Of a stretch of DNA of 64,000 nucleotides, positions 39,792-64,000 are shown piece by piece. The stretch is from a bacterium (GTDB lineage: Bacteria > Deinococcota > Deinococci > Deinococcales > Deinococcaceae). The DNA lies in assembly GCA_021810505.1 (NCBI GenBank), contig JAJZIR010000002.1, forward strand, positions 62,001-126,000. The letters run 5' to 3'. Position 1 is the stretch's first letter. Each line of letters begins with the position of its first letter. The translations under genes and the position numbers were made by a program. Below the pieces are notes generated by a model, which ran no database searches, was not told where the DNA came from, and worked only from the letters and a program-made list of their open reading frames with translations.

Positions 39792-40994
39792 GTGAACGGC
39801 AAAGCTTACACCGGACCGGTCAACCTGGGCTCGGCCACCAGCGCCACCCTCGCCCTGCCCGAGAACAGCTCCGCGGCAAATCAGGTCTACGCCCTGACCC
39901 TTACCAACAGCTCTCAGCCCAGCTTCCTGGCCACCACCACCTTGACCGTGGACCGCCCCAAGGTGGTGACCTTTCTGGCTCCGGGTGGTTCATTTCCCGC
40001 TCTTTATGAAAGCTTTGGCCCAGGCCTAGCTGTCGACCCCTCCGGGAACGTCTGGGCCACCGGCTATGACTACAGCACCCTCCTCGAGGCTCCCCTGGGC
40101 GCATCCCCCACCGGTCTGGTCAATTTTCCCTCGGTTACAGTGAGCGGCGTAAGCAGCCTAGACGGTCCGGAGGGTATCGCCGTCGACCCCTCCGGGAACG
40201 TCTGGGTGGCGAACTACTCTAACGACACCGTCACCGAGATCCCGGCTGGATCCACCCCCGGCTCCACCCCGGTGGTGTTCAGCGGCTCCAGCTACTCCTT
40301 CAGCAACCCGTACGCTATTGCCGTCGACCCCTCCGGGAACGTCTGGGTGGCGAACTACTCTAACGACACCGTCACCGAGATCCCGGCTGGATCCACCCCC
40401 GGCTCCACCTCGGTGGTGTTCAGCGGCTCCAGCTACTCCTTCGATAGTCCGGAGGGTATCGCCGTCGACCCCTCCGGGAACGTCTGGGTGGCGAACTACT
40501 ATGGCGACACCGTCACCGAGATCCCCAAAGGATCTCCCTCCGCCACCCCGGTGGTGTTCAGAGGCTCCAGCTACTCCTTCAGCCACCCATATGGTATCGC
40601 CGTCGACTCCTCCGGGAACGTCTGGGTGGCGAACTACTCCAGCGGTACCGTCACCGAGATCCCCAAAGGATCTCCCTCCGCCACCCCGGTGGTGTTCCCC
40701 AACTCCTGGTTCGATGGCGGTGCCGAGTCGGTGGCAGTGGACGGCGCCGGGAACGTCTGGGTGGGGACCTACTACGGGCTCACTGAAATCCCTGCGGGAT
40801 CGACTCCCAGCTCCACCCCGGTCATCTTCTCCTCCAGCCTGCTGGACGCAGCTGGGGCCTATTACGGCGGGGAGTTCTTTAGCATCGCGGTCGACCAGAG
40901 CGGGAACGTATGGCTGGTTAACTATTACCGCGGAGACCTGCAGGAGCTGGTGGGCGTAGCTGCCCCCCGCAAGTCCTCGGTGCCGCTGCTGTAG
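39792..40994 (+). CDS. Beta-propeller (NHL/Vgb-like) repeat body of the same lipoprotein
   Basis: About 400 residues made of a short Ig-like start and then 43-residue repeats of the form GIAVDPSGNVWVANY followed by TVTEIPAGS. At least five are strongly alike at DNA level, giving a propeller of about six or seven blades. Probably an exported binding or lyase-like surface protein; the ligand is unknown. If the upstream frameshift is real this part lacks its export signal. A GTG at 39792 is the first start in this frame but has no good ribosome site. Confidence 0.75.
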   Translation: MNGKAYTGPVNLGSATSATLALPENSSAANQVYALTLTNSSQPSFLATTTLTVDRPKVVTFLAPGGSFPALYESFGPGLAVDPSGNVWATGYDYSTLLEAPLGASPTGLVNFPSVTVSGVSSLDGPEGIAVDPSGNVWVANYSNDTVTEIPAGSTPGSTPVVFSGSSYSFSNPYAIAVDPSGNVWVANYSNDTVTEIPAGSTPGSTSVVFSGSSYSFDSPEGIAVDPSGNVWVANYYGDTVTEIPKGSPSATPVVFRGSSYSFSHPYGIAVDSSGNVWVANYSSGTVTEIPKGSPSATPVVFPNSWFDGGAESVAVDGAGNVWVGTYYGLTEIPAGSTPSSTPVIFSSSLLDAAGAYYGGEFFSIAVDQSGNVWLVNYYRGDLQELVGVAAPRKSSVPLL

Positions 40995-52727: not shown

Positions 52728-54194
52728 CTAGCTTCTGGAGACGTTCTGGTGGGGTTCGCCGGCGGGTAGGCCGTGGCTGGGCCGCAGGTAGGATAAGGCC
52801 GCGGCGACGATGCTGACCGCGAAGCAGAACCAGAAGGCGCCGTGCAGCCCCTGATCGAAGAGCCGGGTAGCCCTAGGGTCTCCCAGACCGCCCCCGTTTA
52901 AGAACACTTTCTGCAACAGGTTTTCCGGTACCTGGCTGAGCACTAGGGGGAAGATGACCGCGATGCTCAACATCTGGCCGGTGTTGGCCAGCATGGTGCG
53001 CATCCCGGCAGCGACCCCGCGCTGGTTGGGCAGCACCGAGCTCATGATCGCGTTGGTGTTGGGGCTGCTGAACAGGCCTGAGCCCATCCCCAGCAGCACC
53101 ATGAAAGCGGCCAACAGCCAGTAGGGGGTCAGCTGGGTGATGGTGGTGAGCAGCAGCAGCGCTACCGAGGAGAGGACCAGGCCCAGAGTGGCCAGCAGCC
53201 TGGAGCCGATCCGGTCCGACAGCGCCCCGGAGGCCGGGCCGACCGCCATGAAGGCCAGGCCGAAGGGGGCCAGCATCAACCCAGCGCTGAGGGGGTTTTG
53301 GCCGTAGGGACCCTGCAGGAAGAAGATCAGCACGAACAGGACCGCTCCCCTGGCCAGCCCGTTCAGCGCGTTGGCCAAGTTGGCGAAGGCGAACAGGCGG
53401 TCGCGGAAGAGCCCCAGGTCGAACATCGGCTGCGCGGTCCGCAGCTCGATCCAGAAGAAAGCTATCAGGCTCAGGGCGGCGGCGATCAGGAGGGCGAGGT
53501 TGACCTGAGGTCCGAAGAGCGGGAAGGCCAGCAGCGATACCCCCAGCAGCAGGCAGCCTAAGCCGATAAAAAAGGTCAGGCTGCCCGGCCAGTCGAAGGT
53601 CTGCTTGGTCGGCAGGCGCACCGGGTCGCGCAGCCGCCAGATTCCCCACAGGGTCCCGAAGATGCCCAGCGGGACGTTGAACCAGAAGATCCAGTGCCAG
53701 GAGATGCTGGTCAGCAAGCCGCCGACCACCGGCCCCAGCACGAAGCCGGCCGCGCCGGCGATCTGGTTGACCCCTAAACCTAGGCCCACCCGGCCGCGCT
53801 TGAAAGCGTCGGTGACGATGGCGGTGCTGTTGGTGATCAGCAGCGCCCCGCCCACGCTCTGCACCACCCGGTAGAGGACCAGGTCCCAGCCGTGGTACTG
53901 GGGCTGGGCGAAGCCGGCCAGCAGCGATCCCAGGGTGAAGATCGCGAAGCCGGCGTTGTACAGCGCCTTGCGGCCCACTATGTCGGCGATCCGTCCGATG
54001 ATCGGGACCAGCGCGGTGGTGATCAGCAAGTAGCCCAACAGCACCCACATGATGGTGAGGAAGCTGCTGTGCAGGTCCTTGAGGATGCTCGGTAGGGCGA
54101 TCAGCAGCGCCGAGCCCTGGACCGAAGCCAGCAGCGCACCCACTGTCGTCACCGAGAGCGCGACCCAGGGATAGCTGTCTCGGTCGGTGGTCAT
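52728..54194 (-). CDS. MFS drug exporter, DHA2 (EmrB/QacA) type
   Basis: A 488-residue, 14-helix major facilitator. Motif A is GRIADIVGRKALYNAGF after helix 2. Motif C-like GAAGFVLGPVVGGLLT is in helix 5, and WHWIFWFNVPLGIFG is typical of DHA2 pumps. Probably proton-driven export of toxic compounds. GGAAGGGGGC precedes the ATG. No regulator adjoins. Last gene before the CRISPR array. Confidence 0.92.
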   Translation of the reverse strand: MTTDRDSYPWVALSVTTVGALLASVQGSALLIALPSILKDLHSSFLTIMWVLLGYLLITTALVPIIGRIADIVGRKALYNAGFAIFTLGSLLAGFAQPQYHGWDLVLYRVVQSVGGALLITNSTAIVTDAFKRGRVGLGLGVNQIAGAAGFVLGPVVGGLLTSISWHWIFWFNVPLGIFGTLWGIWRLRDPVRLPTKQTFDWPGSLTFFIGLGCLLLGVSLLAFPLFGPQVNLALLIAAALSLIAFFWIELRTAQPMFDLGLFRDRLFAFANLANALNGLARGAVLFVLIFFLQGPYGQNPLSAGLMLAPFGLAFMAVGPASGALSDRIGSRLLATLGLVLSSVALLLLTTITQLTPYWLLAAFMVLLGMGSGLFSSPNTNAIMSSVLPNQRGVAAGMRTMLANTGQMLSIAVIFPLVLSQVPENLLQKVFLNGGGLGDPRATRLFDQGLHGAFWFCFAVSIVAAALSYLRPSHGLPAGEPHQNVSRS

Positions 54195-54487
54195 ATTGCC
54201 CCCTTCCCGCGCCCAGCGCGTTCAAGCCCGATTAGAAGCCCGGGGAGCCCGGGCCGTTGTGAGCTGCTCTACACTCCAGCCAGGGGTCAATCGCCTGCCC
54301 GCGGGCGGGCGGGTCTGGGCCGGAGCCAAAATCCCTTCCCTGGCCTGGCCAGGGCGCTGCGCCGCGGCGTCCATACCTGAGAAGACCGGGTAGGCTCCCT
54401 CAGCCTGCCGGCTTGGTGACCTAGTCTCCTAGGAGTTCCTTCAGCCTTTTGGACTGCGCGTCTTTCTTGGGATCCCAGATCCCCAAC
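54195..54487. other. Trailer side of the CRISPR array, no gene
   Basis: About 290 bp between the MFS start and the first, degenerate repeat. It should contain the MFS promoter. It lacks an AT-rich leader, which fits this being the old end of the array. Confidence 0.5.
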
Positions 54488-54524
54488 CGGTCCAACCTCA
54501 CCCGGCCCGAGGGTCGGGTGCAAC
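54488..54524 (-). repeat. Degenerate terminal CRISPR repeat (trailer end)
   Basis: Matches the consensus except in its first eight plus-strand bases. Decay of the terminal repeat is typical of the leader-distal end. Confidence 0.85.
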
Positions 54525-57500
54525 GTCACCCCCGTGGAGACCACACTGCCCGTCCAGGCGTTTCAATCCTCACCCGGCCCGAGGGTCGGGTGCAACCTGG
54601 GGATGGGATCTGCTGGCTACCGTCGTCGGCGTTTCAATCCTCACCCGGCCCGAGGGTCGGGTGCAACCGGTTTGGGCGGCTGGCAGCCCACTACGAGATC
54701 CCGTTTCAATCCTCACCCGGCCCGAGGGTCGGGTGCAACGCGTGGTAGAGCGGTATCCCGTCCTCGTCCTCCCAGTTTCAATCCTCACCCGGCCCGAGGG
54801 TCGGGTGCAACCCCCGCTCCCACCGCTACGCCCTCTACGATCTGTATGTTTCAATCCTCACCCGGCCCGAGGGTCGGGTGCAACCGCCAGCACCTACCTG
54901 GAGCTGGCCCTACAGCTCGTTTCAATCCTCACCCGGCCCGAGGGTCGGGTGCAACGGAGCGCGGTGATGAAGGCACTATGAATCCGCTGCCGTTTCAATC
55001 CTCACCCGGCCCGAGGGTCGGGTGCAACGTGATCGTCCTGGCCGCGCTCTACCGGACCGGGGCGTTTCAATCCTCACCCGGCCCGAGGGTCGGGTGCAAC
55101 CAGAGTTGGGGCTTCTTAAAAGAGTGATTATCCCAAGTTTCAATCCTCACCCGGCCCGAGGGTCGGGTGCAACCCAGGTGCAGCTGGTCGGGTGTGTGTG
55201 GGCATATTGTTTCAATCCTCACCCGGCCCGAGGGTCGGGTGCAACGTCGCGGAGGAGCTCCAGGCCCAGCGGGCCCAGCTCGTTTCAATCCTCACCCGGC
55301 CCGAGGGTCGGGTGCAACGACCGCATCGGCAGCGCCCATGGGCATCGATGGGCATTGTTTCAATCCTCACCCGGCCCGAGGGTCGGGTGCAACCGCGGCC
55401 TCCGCGGCGGAGGCGCTGCAGCAGGCTTTGTTTCAATCCTCACCCGGCCCGAGGGTCGGGTGCAACCGGGGCGACCAGTGCGATCGGGGCTGCCGGTGAG
55501 CGTTTCAATCCTCACCCGGCCCGAGGGTCGGGTGCAACCAGTGCTGCCGGTGAGCTACTGAGCTGCCGGTGCGTTTCAATCCTCACCCGGCCCGAGGGTC
55601 GGGTGCAACATCGCCTCACCTCGGAGGGTTGGCCGCCCATCGATGTTTCAATCCTCACCCGGCCCGAGGGTCGGGTGCAACCAGGAACTTAATCAGCATT
55701 ACCGGTTGTTATCAATTGTTTCAATCCTCACCCGGCCCGAGGGTCGGGTGCAACCTGGACGAGGCGATGGAACGCCGGGCTGTACGCCGTGTTTCAATCC
55801 TCACCCGGCCCGAGGGTCGGGTGCAACAAGTTGACAGCAAAAAGCGGTCGAGAATGACGACGTGTTTCAATCCTCACCCGGCCCGAGGGTCGGGTGCAAC
55901 AAGCGCAGCCGAGGTCAGCTCAGTGCAAGCGCAGCGTTTCAATCCTCACCCGGCCCGAGGGTCGGGTGCAACCTCGGCTCACACTGGGGCTATGGCACGG
56001 CATCTGGAGTTTCAATCCTCACCCGGCCCGAGGGTCGGGTGCAACGTCCAGTACCGGGAAAGGCCGGATACTGCGCTGATGTTTCAATCCTCACCCGGCC
56101 CGAGGGTCGGGTGCAACGACCGAGTCGGCACAGCGCTCCTGAGACCGAGTCGGGTTTCAATCCTCACCCGGCCCGAGGGTCGGGTGCAACCTAAGCTAGC
56201 AGCCCGAAATGATCACCGCTCTCCGTGTTTCAATCCTCACCCGGCCCGAGGGTCGGGTGCAACTCCCAGAGCGCGCCCCAGAGCGCGGGATCATCGTGTT
56301 TCAATCCTCACCCGGCCCGAGGGTCGGGTGCAACCCCGCCCGGGCGCGGGAAGGGAGAGGCGGAGGCTAGGTTTCAATCCTCACCCGGCCCGAGGGTCGG
56401 GTGCAACGGGACCGGGAACCAGCGACATCGAGGCGCCCCGAGTTTCAATCCTCACCCGGCCCGAGGGTCGGGTGCAACATCCTCCTTTTGCCCCATCCAG
56501 AGCGGAAAAGTTGTTTCAATCCTCACCCGGCCCGAGGGTCGGGTGCAACACGCGATACCGATTCAAAGCCCCCTGCCCGGGATGTTTCAATCCTCACCCG
56601 GCCCGAGGGTCGGGTGCAACGTGGGCCAGCTCGGCCCAGGCCGCCTCGGTGAGGTTTCAATCCTCACCCGGCCCGAGGGTCGGGTGCAACCGCGGCAGAC
56701 GCTGCAGCGGACGGGCTCCTAGAGGTTTCAATCCTCACCCGGCCCGAGGGTCGGGTGCAACAAGCGCAGCCGAGGTCAGCTCAGTGCAAGCGCAGCGTTT
56801 CAATCCTCACCCGGCCCGAGGGTCGGGTGCAACCTCGGCTCACACTGGGGCTATGGCACGGCATCTGGAGTTTCAATCCTCACCCGGCCCGAGGGTCGGG
56901 TGCAACCAAGCGCAGCAGACCTCAGCTCAGTGCAAGCGCAGCGTTTCAATCCTCACCCGGCCCGAGGGTCGGGTGCAACATCGGGCCGAGATGCCGATCG
57001 GGGTGCCGGATGCCGTTTCAATCCTCACCCGGCCCGAGGGTCGGGTGCAACCCGAAGAGGAACCGCGAACGAGTGGCCTGGATTAGTTTCAATCCTCACC
57101 CGGCCCGAGGGTCGGGTGCAACGATTTCCCTGGCTCAGGCCGAGCTGGCGGCGCAGGTTTCAATCCTCACCCGGCCCGAGGGTCGGGTGCAACGTCTCGC
57201 CGCAGCAAGGTGGTGCAGCCGCTCCTGAGTTTCAATCCTCACCCGGCCCGAGGGTCGGGTGCAACCAGCAGCCATTGATTGCGCCGCAGCAGCCCGAGCT
57301 CGTTTCAATCCTCACCCGGCCCGAGGGTCGGGTGCAACGGGTGGTGGTGAGGTGATGGTTATGGTTTCCACTGTGTTTCAATCCTCACCCGGCCCGAGGG
57401 TCGGGTGCAACGGGGGGCTAGTACAGGTCGGGGCGGCTGCCCTGGAGGTTTCAATCCTCACCCGGCCCGAGGGTCGGGTGCAACCCGAGCGCGGTGCGCC

Positions 57501-60500
57501 CGCGCATCTGGATCGGCACGTTTCAATCCTCACCCGGCCCGAGGGTCGGGTGCAACGCCTGGGCGGTCTGCTGCTGTTGGGCGATGTTAAGAGGTTTCAA
57601 TCCTCACCCGGCCCGAGGGTCGGGTGCAACCGGGGGCTGCCGGCGGCAGCGCTAGCTCCAGTGTGGTTTCAATCCTCACCCGGCCCGAGGGTCGGGTGCA
57701 ACGCGAGTCGGTTCCACCTTGCTGCGGCGACTCGCTACGTTTCAATCCTCACCCGGCCCGAGGGTCGGGTGCAACTGCGGTTCGCTGCGCTGCTCCTCGT
57801 CCACTCATCGTTTCAATCCTCACCCGGCCCGAGGGTCGGGTGCAACGCCCCATGGGAAGTCTATTTTATTGCGGAGCAGCTCGTTTCAATCCTCACCCGG
57901 CCCGAGGGTCGGGTGCAACCTCCGCGCGCGAGCTCGGGCGCGCGACCAGCCAGATGTTTCAATCCTCACCCGGCCCGAGGGTCGGGTGCAACCCTCGAGA
58001 TAGGCGGCAAACAGGTGCTCGACCAATGTTTCAATCCTCACCCGGCCCGAGGGTCGGGTGCAACCCACAGCTCTGGATCATCGTCGCGGTCGCACTCCTG
58101 TTTCAATCCTCACCCGGCCCGAGGGTCGGGTGCAACATCACCGTCACGTCCGCTACCACCGCCAACGTCGGGTTTCAATCCTCACCCGGCCCGAGGGTCG
58201 GGTGCAACCGGGTGCCCATCGGTGCCGATGCCGGGTGAGGTCCGTTTCAATCCTCACCCGGCCCGAGGGTCGGGTGCAACATGCGGTCGGTCAGGTGCCT
58301 GGTGCAGCCGGACCTGTTTCAATCCTCACCCGGCCCGAGGGTCGGGTGCAACGTCCAGCAGCATATCCGGCGTGCACGAGAGGAATTAGTTTCAATCCTC
58401 ACCCGGCCCGAGGGTCGGGTGCAACCACCAGGCACCTGACCGACCGCATCGGTAGCTCAGGTTTCAATCCTCACCCGGCCCGAGGGTCGGGTGCAACGCC
58501 GGTTCCACCTTCAGGAAGCGTGCCGTAGCCCTGTTTCAATCCTCACCCGGCCCGAGGGTCGGGTGCAACGCCGGTTATGCCACCATTGGGGTTGGTGGCC
58601 AGCCAGGTTTCAATCCTCACCCGGCCCGAGGGTCGGGTGCAACATGAACTTGGCGGAGGAGGAGATTTCGCAGGGATCGGTTTCAATCCTCACCCGGCCC
58701 GAGGGTCGGGTGCAACGCCCAGGCATGCCCGAGCGCGGCATGGAGGTTCAGGTTTCAATCCTCACCCGGCCCGAGGGTCGGGTGCAACAGGGGTGTGGGG
58801 ATCGAGGACGAAGCGGATCAGGGTTTCAATCCTCACCCGGCCCGAGGGTCGGGTGCAACAGCAGGTGGAAATGGCCAGGCTCCGCGGCTTCGAGGTTTCA
58901 ATCCTCACCCGGCCCGAGGGTCGGGTGCAACGGGGCCAAGTAGCTTGGCTTGCGAGGTAGCTTTGGGGTTTCAATCCTCACCCGGCCCGAGGGTCGGGTG
59001 CAACCCCCCTAGGCATCTCTCGCCGCTCGGCTGGGCGGTCGTTTCAATCCTCACCCGGCCCGAGGGTCGGGTGCAACGGAGACCGACCGTTCCTTTCCTT
59101 GCTGGTGAGGAGTTTCAATCCTCACCCGGCCCGAGGGTCGGGTGCAACCGGGCCGCCCGAGCGGGGGGCTGCCCGAGCTTGTCGTTTCAATCCTCACCCG
59201 GCCCGAGGGTCGGGTGCAACCCTCCTCGAGCAGCTGATAGATGCGCACTCGGGTGTTTCAATCCTCACCCGGCCCGAGGGTCGGGTGCAACAAGGGGTAT
59301 GTGCTTAACGAGATTGACGCCATTCTCGTTTCAATCCTCACCCGGCCCGAGGGTCGGGTGCAACACGGTATAAAGTGCGTCTGGATAGCTGGGATAGTGG
59401 TTTCAATCCTCACCCGGCCCGAGGGTCGGGTGCAACGAAAGGTTAAGATACGTCCGGCGGCACCAGGGGTGTTTCAATCCTCACCCGGCCCGAGGGTCGG
59501 GTGCAACGTTAAGGTCTGCTGAACACCCTCCGCAGGCGCGTCGTTTCAATCCTCACCCGGCCCGAGGGTCGGGTGCAACTGGTCGATCCAATTAGTAATC
59601 CCTGAGAATAGCCCTGTTTCAATCCTCACCCGGCCCGAGGGTCGGGTGCAACGGGGGCTTGCCTTTGCACCCACACATGCACACATGGTTTCAATCCTCA
59701 CCCGGCCCGAGGGTCGGGTGCAACTGCGCGGGCTGGTGCATGGGTGTGGGTGCCCTATTGTTTCAATCCTCACCCGGCCCGAGGGTCGGGTGCAACACTT
59801 CTCGGTAGAGCTCGGGAACTTAATCAGCATGTTTCAATCCTCACCCGGCCCGAGGGTCGGGTGCAACGGTGAGGGAATCCTACGCCTGGGGCGCAAGCGA
59901 GGTTTCAATCCTCACCCGGCCCGAGGGTCGGGTGCAACCAGGCCGTCCTCCCCCGGGATGACCGGGAGCTCGTGTTTCAATCCTCACCCGGCCCGAGGGT
60001 CGGGTGCAACGGTGCCAACTGCCGGGTGCCAATGGGCTTGGTGCCGTTTCAATCCTCACCCGGCCCGAGGGTCGGGTGCAACTCGCGCGGAGCTGGCCCT
60101 GCAGCTCCGGGCCCGGGTTTCAATCCTCACCCGGCCCGAGGGTCGGGTGCAACGAGGAGGGATCTTGGGACGGACTGGGAGTGGCGTCCGTTTCAATCCT
60201 CACCCGGCCCGAGGGTCGGGTGCAACGGCCAGCTCCGCCCAAGCAAACCGGCCAGATCACGCGGTTTCAATCCTCACCCGGCCCGAGGGTCGGGTGCAAC
60301 CCAGCTGGTCTCGGCAGCGAGTCGGTCTCGGCACGTTTCAATCCTCACCCGGCCCGAGGGTCGGGTGCAACCAGCGAGTCGGTCTCGGCACCACCAGCTG
60401 GTCTCGGGTTTCAATCCTCACCCGGCCCGAGGGTCGGGTGCAACCACCAGCTGGTCTCGGCAGCGAGTCGGTCTCGGCACGTTTCAATCCTCACCCGGCC

Positions 60501-63500
60501 CGAGGGTCGGGTGCAACGTGCCGGTGGCGCGGAGCACGATCGAGACCATCTCGTTTCAATCCTCACCCGGCCCGAGGGTCGGGTGCAACGCAGTTGGCGT
60601 AGATATATGGAGCTCACCCCAAGCTGTTTCAATCCTCACCCGGCCCGAGGGTCGGGTGCAACGTCCCGCTCCCGGCCCCTGGCCATGGCCGAGGGCGGGT
60701 TTCAATCCTCACCCGGCCCGAGGGTCGGGTGCAACGGCGGTGAGGGAGCTGGTGAAAAACGGAAGATTCAGTTTCAATCCTCACCCGGCCCGAGGGTCGG
60801 GTGCAACAGTACGGGCTCGAGACGGAGAGGCCTGCGGAAACGTTTCAATCCTCACCCGGCCCGAGGGTCGGGTGCAACAGGTAGTCGATCTGGCCTGGGC
60901 GGGGGCCCAGCCAGTTTCAATCCTCACCCGGCCCGAGGGTCGGGTGCAACAAGAGGCCACCCACACACCAACAATACCAGTTATCGTTTCAATCCTCACC
61001 CGGCCCGAGGGTCGGGTGCAACCTGACTAGCGGCGGCCAGGGTGATGGAGGCGGTCCAGGTTTCAATCCTCACCCGGCCCGAGGGTCGGGTGCAACAGCC
61101 AGCTGGCCTCCGGGATCAGCGTGCCCGAGGGGTTTCAATCCTCACCCGGCCCGAGGGTCGGGTGCAACTGAGGGATAGGCAAATTCTGCGCCAGCTTCCC
61201 TATCGTTTCAATCCTCACCCGGCCCGAGGGTCGGGTGCAACCGTGTGGGCCGGCTCGCGGCCCACTACGAGATCCCGTTTCAATCCTCACCCGGCCCGAG
61301 GGTCGGGTGCAACGCCCCTGCCTCTTACCTGGAGCTGGCTCTCCAGCTCGTTTCAATCCTCACCCGGCCCGAGGGTCGGGTGCAACGATCATGAGCAACC
61401 GCCCCCCGCGCGTGGCGCCACGTTTCAATCCTCACCCGGCCCGAGGGTCGGGTGCAACGGCTGGGGGGGGGAGCGGCGGGATCTCGATCCCAGCGTTTCA
61501 ATCCTCACCCGGCCCGAGGGTCGGGTGCAACGTGGAGGCGGCGCAGCCCAGCAGGTGGGCAGCTCGTTTCAATCCTCACCCGGCCCGAGGGTCGGGTGCA
61601 ACTGGCACACTGCCGGCAGCGGCGGTGGGCCAGGTCATCGTTTCAATCCTCACCCGGCCCGAGGGTCGGGTGCAACCCGATCTACCCTGTAATCACCGGT
61701 ACCTTCACACGTTTCAATCCTCACCCGGCCCGAGGGTCGGGTGCAACATGTACGCGCCTGCGATTGCAAAATAGTTCTCCCGGGTTTCAATCCTCACCCG
61801 GCCCGAGGGTCGGGTGCAACCGGCCCGAGCTGGGGAGGGTTGTGTCCCCGGGATAGGTTTCAATCCTCACCCGGCCCGAGGGTCGGGTGCAACGGTGGAG
61901 GCGGCGCAGCCCAGCAGGTGGGCAGCTCGTTTCAATCCTCACCCGGCCCGAGGGTCGGGTGCAACAGAGCACCCCCAGCGCGGCGCTGCTGCGCGAGATC
62001 GTTTCAATCCTCACCCGGCCCGAGGGTCGGGTGCAACCGATCCTGGAGCCAGGAAGGCAGCAGACGGCTATGTTTCAATCCTCACCCGGCCCGAGGGTCG
62101 GGTGCAACATCGGCATTGGCACCCGGCACCGATGGGCACCCGGGTTTCAATCCTCACCCGGCCCGAGGGTCGGGTGCAACCCGGCAGCCCGGCATTGGCA
62201 TCGATGGGCACCCGGGTTTCAATCCTCACCCGGCCCGAGGGTCGGGTGCAACTCCCGCGCAGAGAAACTTCTCGGTAGAGCTCGGGGTTTCAATCCTCAC
62301 CCGGCCCGAGGGTCGGGTGCAACGGGGAGGTGGTGGCGTGAGCCGCGTCCCCGTCCAGTTTCAATCCTCACCCGGCCCGAGGGTCGGGTGCAACGCGCGA
62401 TCCGCCTCCTCGAGCCCGTGGTCGGGCGCGTTTCAATCCTCACCCGGCCCGAGGGTCGGGTGCAACAAATCCTAGAGTTGGGTTAGCCATGTTGCCTCCT
62501 GTTTCAATCCTCACCCGGCCCGAGGGTCGGGTGCAACGATCATTTGCGTCTGGGACAGCGTTCTTATGGACGAGTTTCAATCCTCACCCGGCCCGAGGGT
62601 CGGGTGCAACATTACCATCCTCGCCACGTCCTCTACCACAGCCAGGTTTCAATCCTCACCCGGCCCGAGGGTCGGGTGCAACGATACGTAGCTGTCGATC
62701 TCGGTGAGGATCTGCTGGTTTCAATCCTCACCCGGCCCGAGGGTCGGGTGCAACGAGGATCATGATGATAGATGAGAATCTAGTAGCCATCGTTTCAATC
62801 CTCACCCGGCCCGAGGGTCGGGTGCAACATGGGGCTGTCGCCGATCGGCTGCAGTGCATTGCCGTTTCAATCCTCACCCGGCCCGAGGGTCGGGTGCAAC
62901 ATGGGGCTGTCGCCGATCGGCTGCAGTGCATTGCCGTTTCAATCCTCACCCGGCCCGAGGGTCGGGTGCAACAACCGAGTCGGTGCCGCAAGGCGCAGCG
63001 CTCCAGGGTTTCAATCCTCACCCGGCCCGAGGGTCGGGTGCAACTGCCGGGGCTGAGGCGGCTGATGGCACTCGCGCTGTTTCAATCCTCACCCGGCCCG
63101 AGGGTCGGGTGCAACGATCTGATCGGTGGTGGGCACGGCATTGCGATGGCGGTTTCAATCCTCACCCGGCCCGAGGGTCGGGTGCAACGGCAGCCCCCAC
63201 CGCCCGGCCAGGGAGCCGGGAAGTTTCAATCCTCACCCGGCCCGAGGGTCGGGTGCAACACCGAGACCGCTTGCTGAGACCGACTCGGCTCCTGAGTTTC
63301 AATCCTCACCCGGCCCGAGGGTCGGGTGCAACTAGCTGTTGCCCCCGAAAAGTGCCTCTGGGAGCGAGACGTTTCAATCCTCACCCGGCCCGAGGGTCGG
63401 GTGCAACTCGGGTGCCCCCGAGGGGAAGGAAGTAAAAATGAAGTTTCAATCCTCACCCGGCCCGAGGGTCGGGTGCAACGAGTACATAGTGGAGGTCCGC

Positions 63501-64000
63501 TTCGACCGCGTGGCGTTTCAATCCTCACCCGGCCCGAGGGTCGGGTGCAACAATTGATCAATCGGGCCTGTAGCTATCTACGGGGGTTTCAATCCTCACC
63601 CGGCCCGAGGGTCGGGTGCAACAGATCCACCTTTCCCCCGGGTGCCCCCGGGGCGGTGTTTCAATCCTCACCCGGCCCGAGGGTCGGGTGCAACTTCCAG
63701 CGGCCCCCCAGTGCCTTGGCCGAGGCGACGGTTTCAATCCTCACCCGGCCCGAGGGTCGGGTGCAACCCATCTCGGCGGCGAACTCGCCGCCGAGGGCGC
63801 TCGTTTCAATCCTCACCCGGCCCGAGGGTCGGGTGCAACGAGACCGACTCGCTACGGTGCCGAGACCGACTCGCGTTTCAATCCTCACCCGGCCCGAGGG
63901 TCGGGTGCAACTCCCGCTCTATGTAGTATGAGAGTTGGACCTGAACAGTTTCAATCCTCACCCGGCCCGAGGGTCGGGTGCAACGCCGGGTCATCATCGC
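54488..64000 (-). CRISPR. Very long CRISPR array, right end not reached
   Basis: By hand count 132 repeats (131 complete spacers plus one cut at the edge). The 37-bp repeat reads on the plus strand GTTTCAATCC at one end and GGGTCGGGTGCAAC at the other, with an inner CACCCGG...GGGTCGGGTG palindrome. All copies looked identical except the first (54488-54524), which has five mismatches in its first eight bases. Spacers are about 34-38 bp. On the minus strand the repeat ends ATTGAAAC, the usual 8-nt crRNA handle of several type I and type III systems. So transcription is probably leftwards and the leader lies beyond 64000. No cas genes are in the window. Confidence 0.99.

Follow-up and report, generated by a model that had tools for sequence, protein, structure and literature searches.

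A probably active type I-C CRISPR-Cas system and its unusually long array in a genome of the Deinococcaceae

Judged from its sequence, the genome analyzed here encodes a type I-C CRISPR-Cas system that is complete, is probably active and has an array of unusual length, a description that is held with high confidence. The window, i.e., the whole stretch of 64,000 nucleotides under analysis, covers bases 62001-126000 of its contig, which is 152,064 bp long; the genome of 2.31 Mb is assembled in 26 contigs with an estimated completeness of 97.85%.

The first-pass annotation had described a CRISPR array of at least 132 repeats at 54488-64000 that was still open at the edge of the window. Parsing of the sequence from 54001 to 64000 yielded exactly 132 copies of the 37-bp repeat GTTTCAATCCTCACCCGGCCCGAGGGTCGGGTGCAAC, of which 131 are without mismatch and one is decayed. 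The following features were assigned:

54488-54524, minus strand: decayed terminal (oldest) repeat, whose outer end carries all of its 5 mismatches
54525-64000, minus strand: part of the array within the window, with 131 complete spacers and as many perfect repeats of 37 bp
55901-56008, minus strand: spacers 20-21, of which an exact second copy is present as spacers 32-33 (56762-56869)
60301-60480, minus strand: spacers 81-83, with a 36-bp tandem-repeat target

The spacers in the window are 33-38 bp long. At its old end (54488) the array adjoins an MFS transporter gene, and on the other side it does continue past 64000, ending in the flanking sequence at window-equivalent position 65497. The whole array comprises 153 repeats and 152 spacers (11,010 bp). 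In total, 149 of the 152 spacers are distinct, which bears out the earlier reading of the array as a large record of invaders; the exact duplicates are 20 = 32, 21 = 33 and 116 = 117. The recurrence of spacers 20-21 as 32-33 may be due either to internal duplication or to re-capture. A search of the genome with the forward repeat returned 153 matches, namely 152 perfect array copies and a stray one that lies between cas7 and cas4 and is the only copy outside the array with up to 3 mismatches; the reversed (read-backwards) repeat, used as a control, gave no match. Elsewhere in the window, a HicB-like antitoxin gene (PF15919; 32508-32906, minus strand) and an NHL beta-propeller-like ORF (39792-40994, plus strand) with DNA repeats at regular intervals of about 140 bp were observed.

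On the minus strand the repeat reads GTTGCACCCGACCCTCGGGCCGGGTGAGGATTGAAAC, with GATTGAAAC at its 3′ end, which is the usual crRNA handle. This end, together with the position of the leader and the cas genes on the right, predicts transcription of the array on the minus strand, from right to left. The cas proteins were assigned by NCBIfam profiles with family cut-offs in the flank right of the window (L031; window-equivalent position = L031 position + 63900):

L031 1597: end of the array
L031 1598-1837: AT-rich leader, 240 bp
L031 1838-2134, minus strand: cas2, above the TIGR01573 cut-off
L031 2145-3164, minus strand: cas1, above the TIGR03640 (Cas1c) cut-off
L031 3169-3789, minus strand: cas4, above the TIGR00372 cut-off
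L031 3973-4962, minus strand: cas7 (Csd2), above the TIGR02589 cut-off
L031 5027-6934, minus strand: cas8c (Csd1), TIGR01863 with 262.8 bits (cut-off 218.65)
L031 6934-7701, minus strand: cas5c, above the TIGR01876 cut-off
L031 7704-10028, minus strand: cas3, HD domain above the NCBIfam cut-off

The leader has a G + C content of 47%, compared to 67% for the window outside the array. The helicase core of Cas3 reached 97.4 bits, just below the cut-off of 102.45. The operon contains what defines type I-C: the Cas8c signature, Cas5c and Cas7, the HD and helicase parts of Cas3, and Cas4-Cas1-Cas2. No cas6 is present in it, the space from cas3 to cas2 being taken up by the other cas genes. By this gene content, the locus is classified as a complete type I-C system with the order cas2-cas1-cas4-cas7-cas8c-cas5c-cas3 from the leader. 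The repeat is predicted to fold into a hairpin of -14.9 kcal/mol; an Rfam search over the locus gave no match.

The first-pass annotation had also called arrays of more than 100 spacers uncommon. Among 811 class 1 systems, the I-C arrays (164 systems) have a mean of 43, a median of 30 and a maximum of 318 spacers, and the I-E arrays a mean of 30, a median of 19 and a maximum of 239 (PMC5575924). With the geometric parameters fitted there, the probability of at least 152 spacers is about 0.03 for I-C, which places the array in the top 3% or so, and that of at least 200 spacers is about 0.001 for I-E. The I-C array is therefore long, but with precedent, and of an ordinary, well-known kind. The longest published class 1 arrays fall into the same length class; what differs here is that two such arrays, of different subtypes and with overlapping targets, are found in one 2.31-Mb genome.

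The second cas locus was found by a Cas1 search on another contig, C13:

C13 40268-52489 (L109, L108): I-E array with 200 spacers and 201 repeats of 29 bp, of which the last is decayed
L108 8582-17645: I-E cas genes cas3, cse1, cse2, cas7, cas5e, cas6e and cas1e

An ORF beside these genes reads like Cas2e when judged by eye. Together, both arrays occupy 23.2 kb, or 1.0% of the genome. Ten pairs of I-C and I-E spacers overlap over at least 14 bases, compared to 1, 0, 0, 0 and 0 pairs with shuffled I-E spacers; therefore, both systems have sampled the same or related elements.

Since overlapping spacers supply each other's flanks, PAMs could be derived from the spacers themselves, no real protospacers being used. 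The four informative I-E flanks are AGG, AGG, ATG and AAG, which are known forms of the I-E PAM and thus support the method. A T at position -2 is found in 10 of the 11 independent flanks of I-C spacers (chance about 6e-7, with three positions allowed); among them are ATG, GTA, GTC, GTG, CTG, GTT, TTG and CTT. A conflicting flank, ACG, results from an alternative overlap, of spacers 81/83 with 130, inside a tandem-repeat family. On the PAM-distal side, the same overlaps showed no comparable pattern. The flanks give NTN rather than TTC, and the I-C PAM seems to be relaxed to a T at -2; this would be a relaxed form because the I-C PAMs on record include TTC, TTN, TTT, CTN, CTT and CCN (PMC8482600). 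Furthermore, four pairs of I-C spacers are nearly identical (81/83, 98/103, 101/137 and 149/152). The members of each pair have the leader-side end (the PAM-side end, 5′ in the crRNA) in common; at the opposite end they vary by 1-2 nt, as would be predicted for independent captures at one PAM with a loose ruler.

These observations also bear on the question whether the array is partly an assembly product, with copies multiplied or joined and a true array that is much shorter. Perfect repeats are difficult for short reads, the genome is in 26 contigs, and the recurrence of spacers 20-21 and the identity of 116 and 117 would fit such an error. On the other hand, 149 of the 152 spacers differ, the anatomy is ordered from the decayed end to the leader and cas genes, the differences of 1-2 nt between re-captured spacers are always at the same end, and there are ten overlaps with an independent I-E array on another contig. 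An assembly artefact is considered highly improbable, because the spacers differ, both ends are ordered and the overlaps with the I-E array are beyond the reach of misassembly.

Part of the I-C spacers is derived from tandem repeats. An internal direct repeat of at least 9 bases is present in 10 of the 152 I-C spacers (0.37 expected from shuffles), two of the ten being one duplicated spacer (20 = 32), and in none of the 200 I-E spacers (0.26 expected). Spacers of the tandem-repeat type are 15, 20, 23, 25, 32, 34, 81-83, 106 and 130, with periods of, e.g., 22, 25, 26 and 36 bp. In spacers 82 and 83, the same 36-bp unit appears in two circular permutations; the target is therefore a head-to-tail array. 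This unit contains no AAG, AGG or ATG, and eight GTG, CTG or GTC sites over the two strands, so that its PAM content may be the reason why only the I-C system sampled it. This is a partial answer, as other repeat-type I-C spacers do contain AAG or ATG. Neither the own assembled genome outside the array nor 110 relatives of the class contained a match to the tandem-repeat spacers.

Matches of the spacers to phages of the Deinococcota, as predicted in the first-pass annotation, did not materialize: there was no convincing match among 50,697 phage records, and seven exact-pattern scans of IMG/VR (six spacer-derived patterns and one repeat) returned zero matches. This is unsurprising because the family is little sampled; three other genomes of it, and none other of the genus, were among those searched. 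Plasmid searches with the array's first 8 kb as query returned only Thermus and Deinococcus records with 64-69% identity over long stretches, as would be expected of repeat-to-repeat matches between CRISPR arrays. Genome_contigs searches with the I-C repeat and with Cas8c gave no match.

In the proposed working of the locus, new spacers would be inserted at the leader beside cas2, right of the window, and the array would be transcribed from right to left. Cas5c would cut the repeat hairpin, a Cascade of Cas5c, Cas8c and Cas7 would bring the guides to DNA, and Cas3 would destroy the target, presumably phages or plasmids of the own lineage. That the array is instead a fossil, left by a silenced or inhibited locus in which spacer uptake and DNA cutting have ended, would agree with a target search that identified no match. 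It is quite unlikely given that each of the seven cas genes has an open frame that matches its profile over most of the length and that 152 of the 153 repeats are identical, with decay confined to the terminal copy, which argues for recent growth and upkeep.

In trees of Cas1, Cas7 and Cas8c, the locus falls within a well-supported clade of Thermaceae-type I-C operons. Hybrid I-C/III-B loci of this type (e.g., L088 and L095) have the same I-C genes in the same order, with identities of about 70% for Cas1 and Cas7 and about 51% for Cas8c, but a different repeat sequence and arrays of up to 62 repeats in the loci fetched, compared to 153 here. In 10 of 10 clade loci with both ends readable (L088-L092, L094, L095 and L103-L105), cas7 and cas4 are separated by 7-8 kb. 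Cmr (type III-B) genes within the insert were identified in two loci, L088 and L099. The insert of L088, presumably from a Meiothermus-type relative, encodes Cmr1, Cas10/Cmr2, Cmr3 and a CARF-RelE effector, and L099, which we take to be Truepera-like and which lies outside the clade, also has a Cmr module between cas7 and cas4. Here, in contrast, the gap between cas7 and cas4 measures 183 bp and holds a strong hairpin and the stray repeat; a Cmr module with Cas10, by which the hybrid loci are recognized, is absent from it, and two profiles detected no Cas10 in the own genome. A related effector could nevertheless be found about 5 kb beyond cas3:

L031 15048-16094, plus strand: CARF-RelE (CARF7), of the same PADLOC family as the hybrid-locus effectors

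Its identity to the CARF-RelE of the hybrid loci is 48-54%. The simplest reading of these comparisons is that the Cmr module was probably lost and the CARF-RelE effector left behind. A later gain of the module in the other clade members is possible because the own locus is placed close to the clade's base. The I-C system of a same-family relative (G001, L107) has the same subtype and gene order, but is placed on a distant branch with 44% identity for Cas7 and 25% for Cas8c, and for this reason the I-C locus was probably exchanged horizontally. A chimera of two I-C operons joined at the stray repeat had been considered when close relatives seemed to lack cas4-cas1-cas2; it was rejected, as 20-kb regions show these genes of the relatives 7-8 kb further on and equally close in sequence.

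The stray repeat itself lies upstream of the adaptation genes:

L031 3804-3840 (window-equivalent 67704-67740), minus strand: stray CRISPR repeat, 34 of 37 positions, 3 mismatches

Because CreA/CreR guides are known examples of ectopic degenerate repeats (PMC9458426, PMC12737573), it is treated as a lead, short of a finding. As in CreTA/CreR, a degenerate repeat in array orientation is located in a cas operon; unlike there, a single repeat is present, and neither a target, nor a toxin, nor conservation is proven. A role as a functional guide of the CreA/CreR kind, or as a Cas5c cut site restricting the expression of the adaptation genes, would be in keeping with the published precedents, the array orientation, the position 14 nt before the likely cas4 start, the mere 3 mismatches and a pseudo-spacer with a 10/12 seed match and a GTG flank in the same gap. 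Another stray repeat, just before cas7 in L088, points in the same direction. Such a role is nevertheless doubtful, since the other 19 relatives' loci fetched lack a stray repeat, the stem is weaker (-9.1 instead of -14.9 kcal/mol), the seed match is nearly what chance would give in 20 kb and the repeat is single. The repeat of L088 (13664-13700, minus strand) is degenerate, with 7 mismatches. A conserved operon element was rejected, as 1 of the 20 relatives' loci has a repeat inside the operon, and in a different place. A wider scenario, in which the III-B module was removed from a hybrid locus, the repeat element upstream of cas4, acting either as a guide of the CreR/CreA kind or as a site cut by Cas5c, throttles the adaptation genes and CARF-RelE is otherwise controlled, is unlikely.

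For the I-C branch to which the locus belongs, NTN is a putative relaxed PAM open to test, and the locus is probably an example of a type III module having been lost and its effector retained; the stray repeat is a candidate regulatory ectopic repeat. In total, the 352 spacers of two independent type I systems, 345 of them distinct, provide a compact record for reconstructing the mobile elements of a little-sampled family, and the two spacer sets allow two adaptation machineries to be compared in what they acquire from common invaders.
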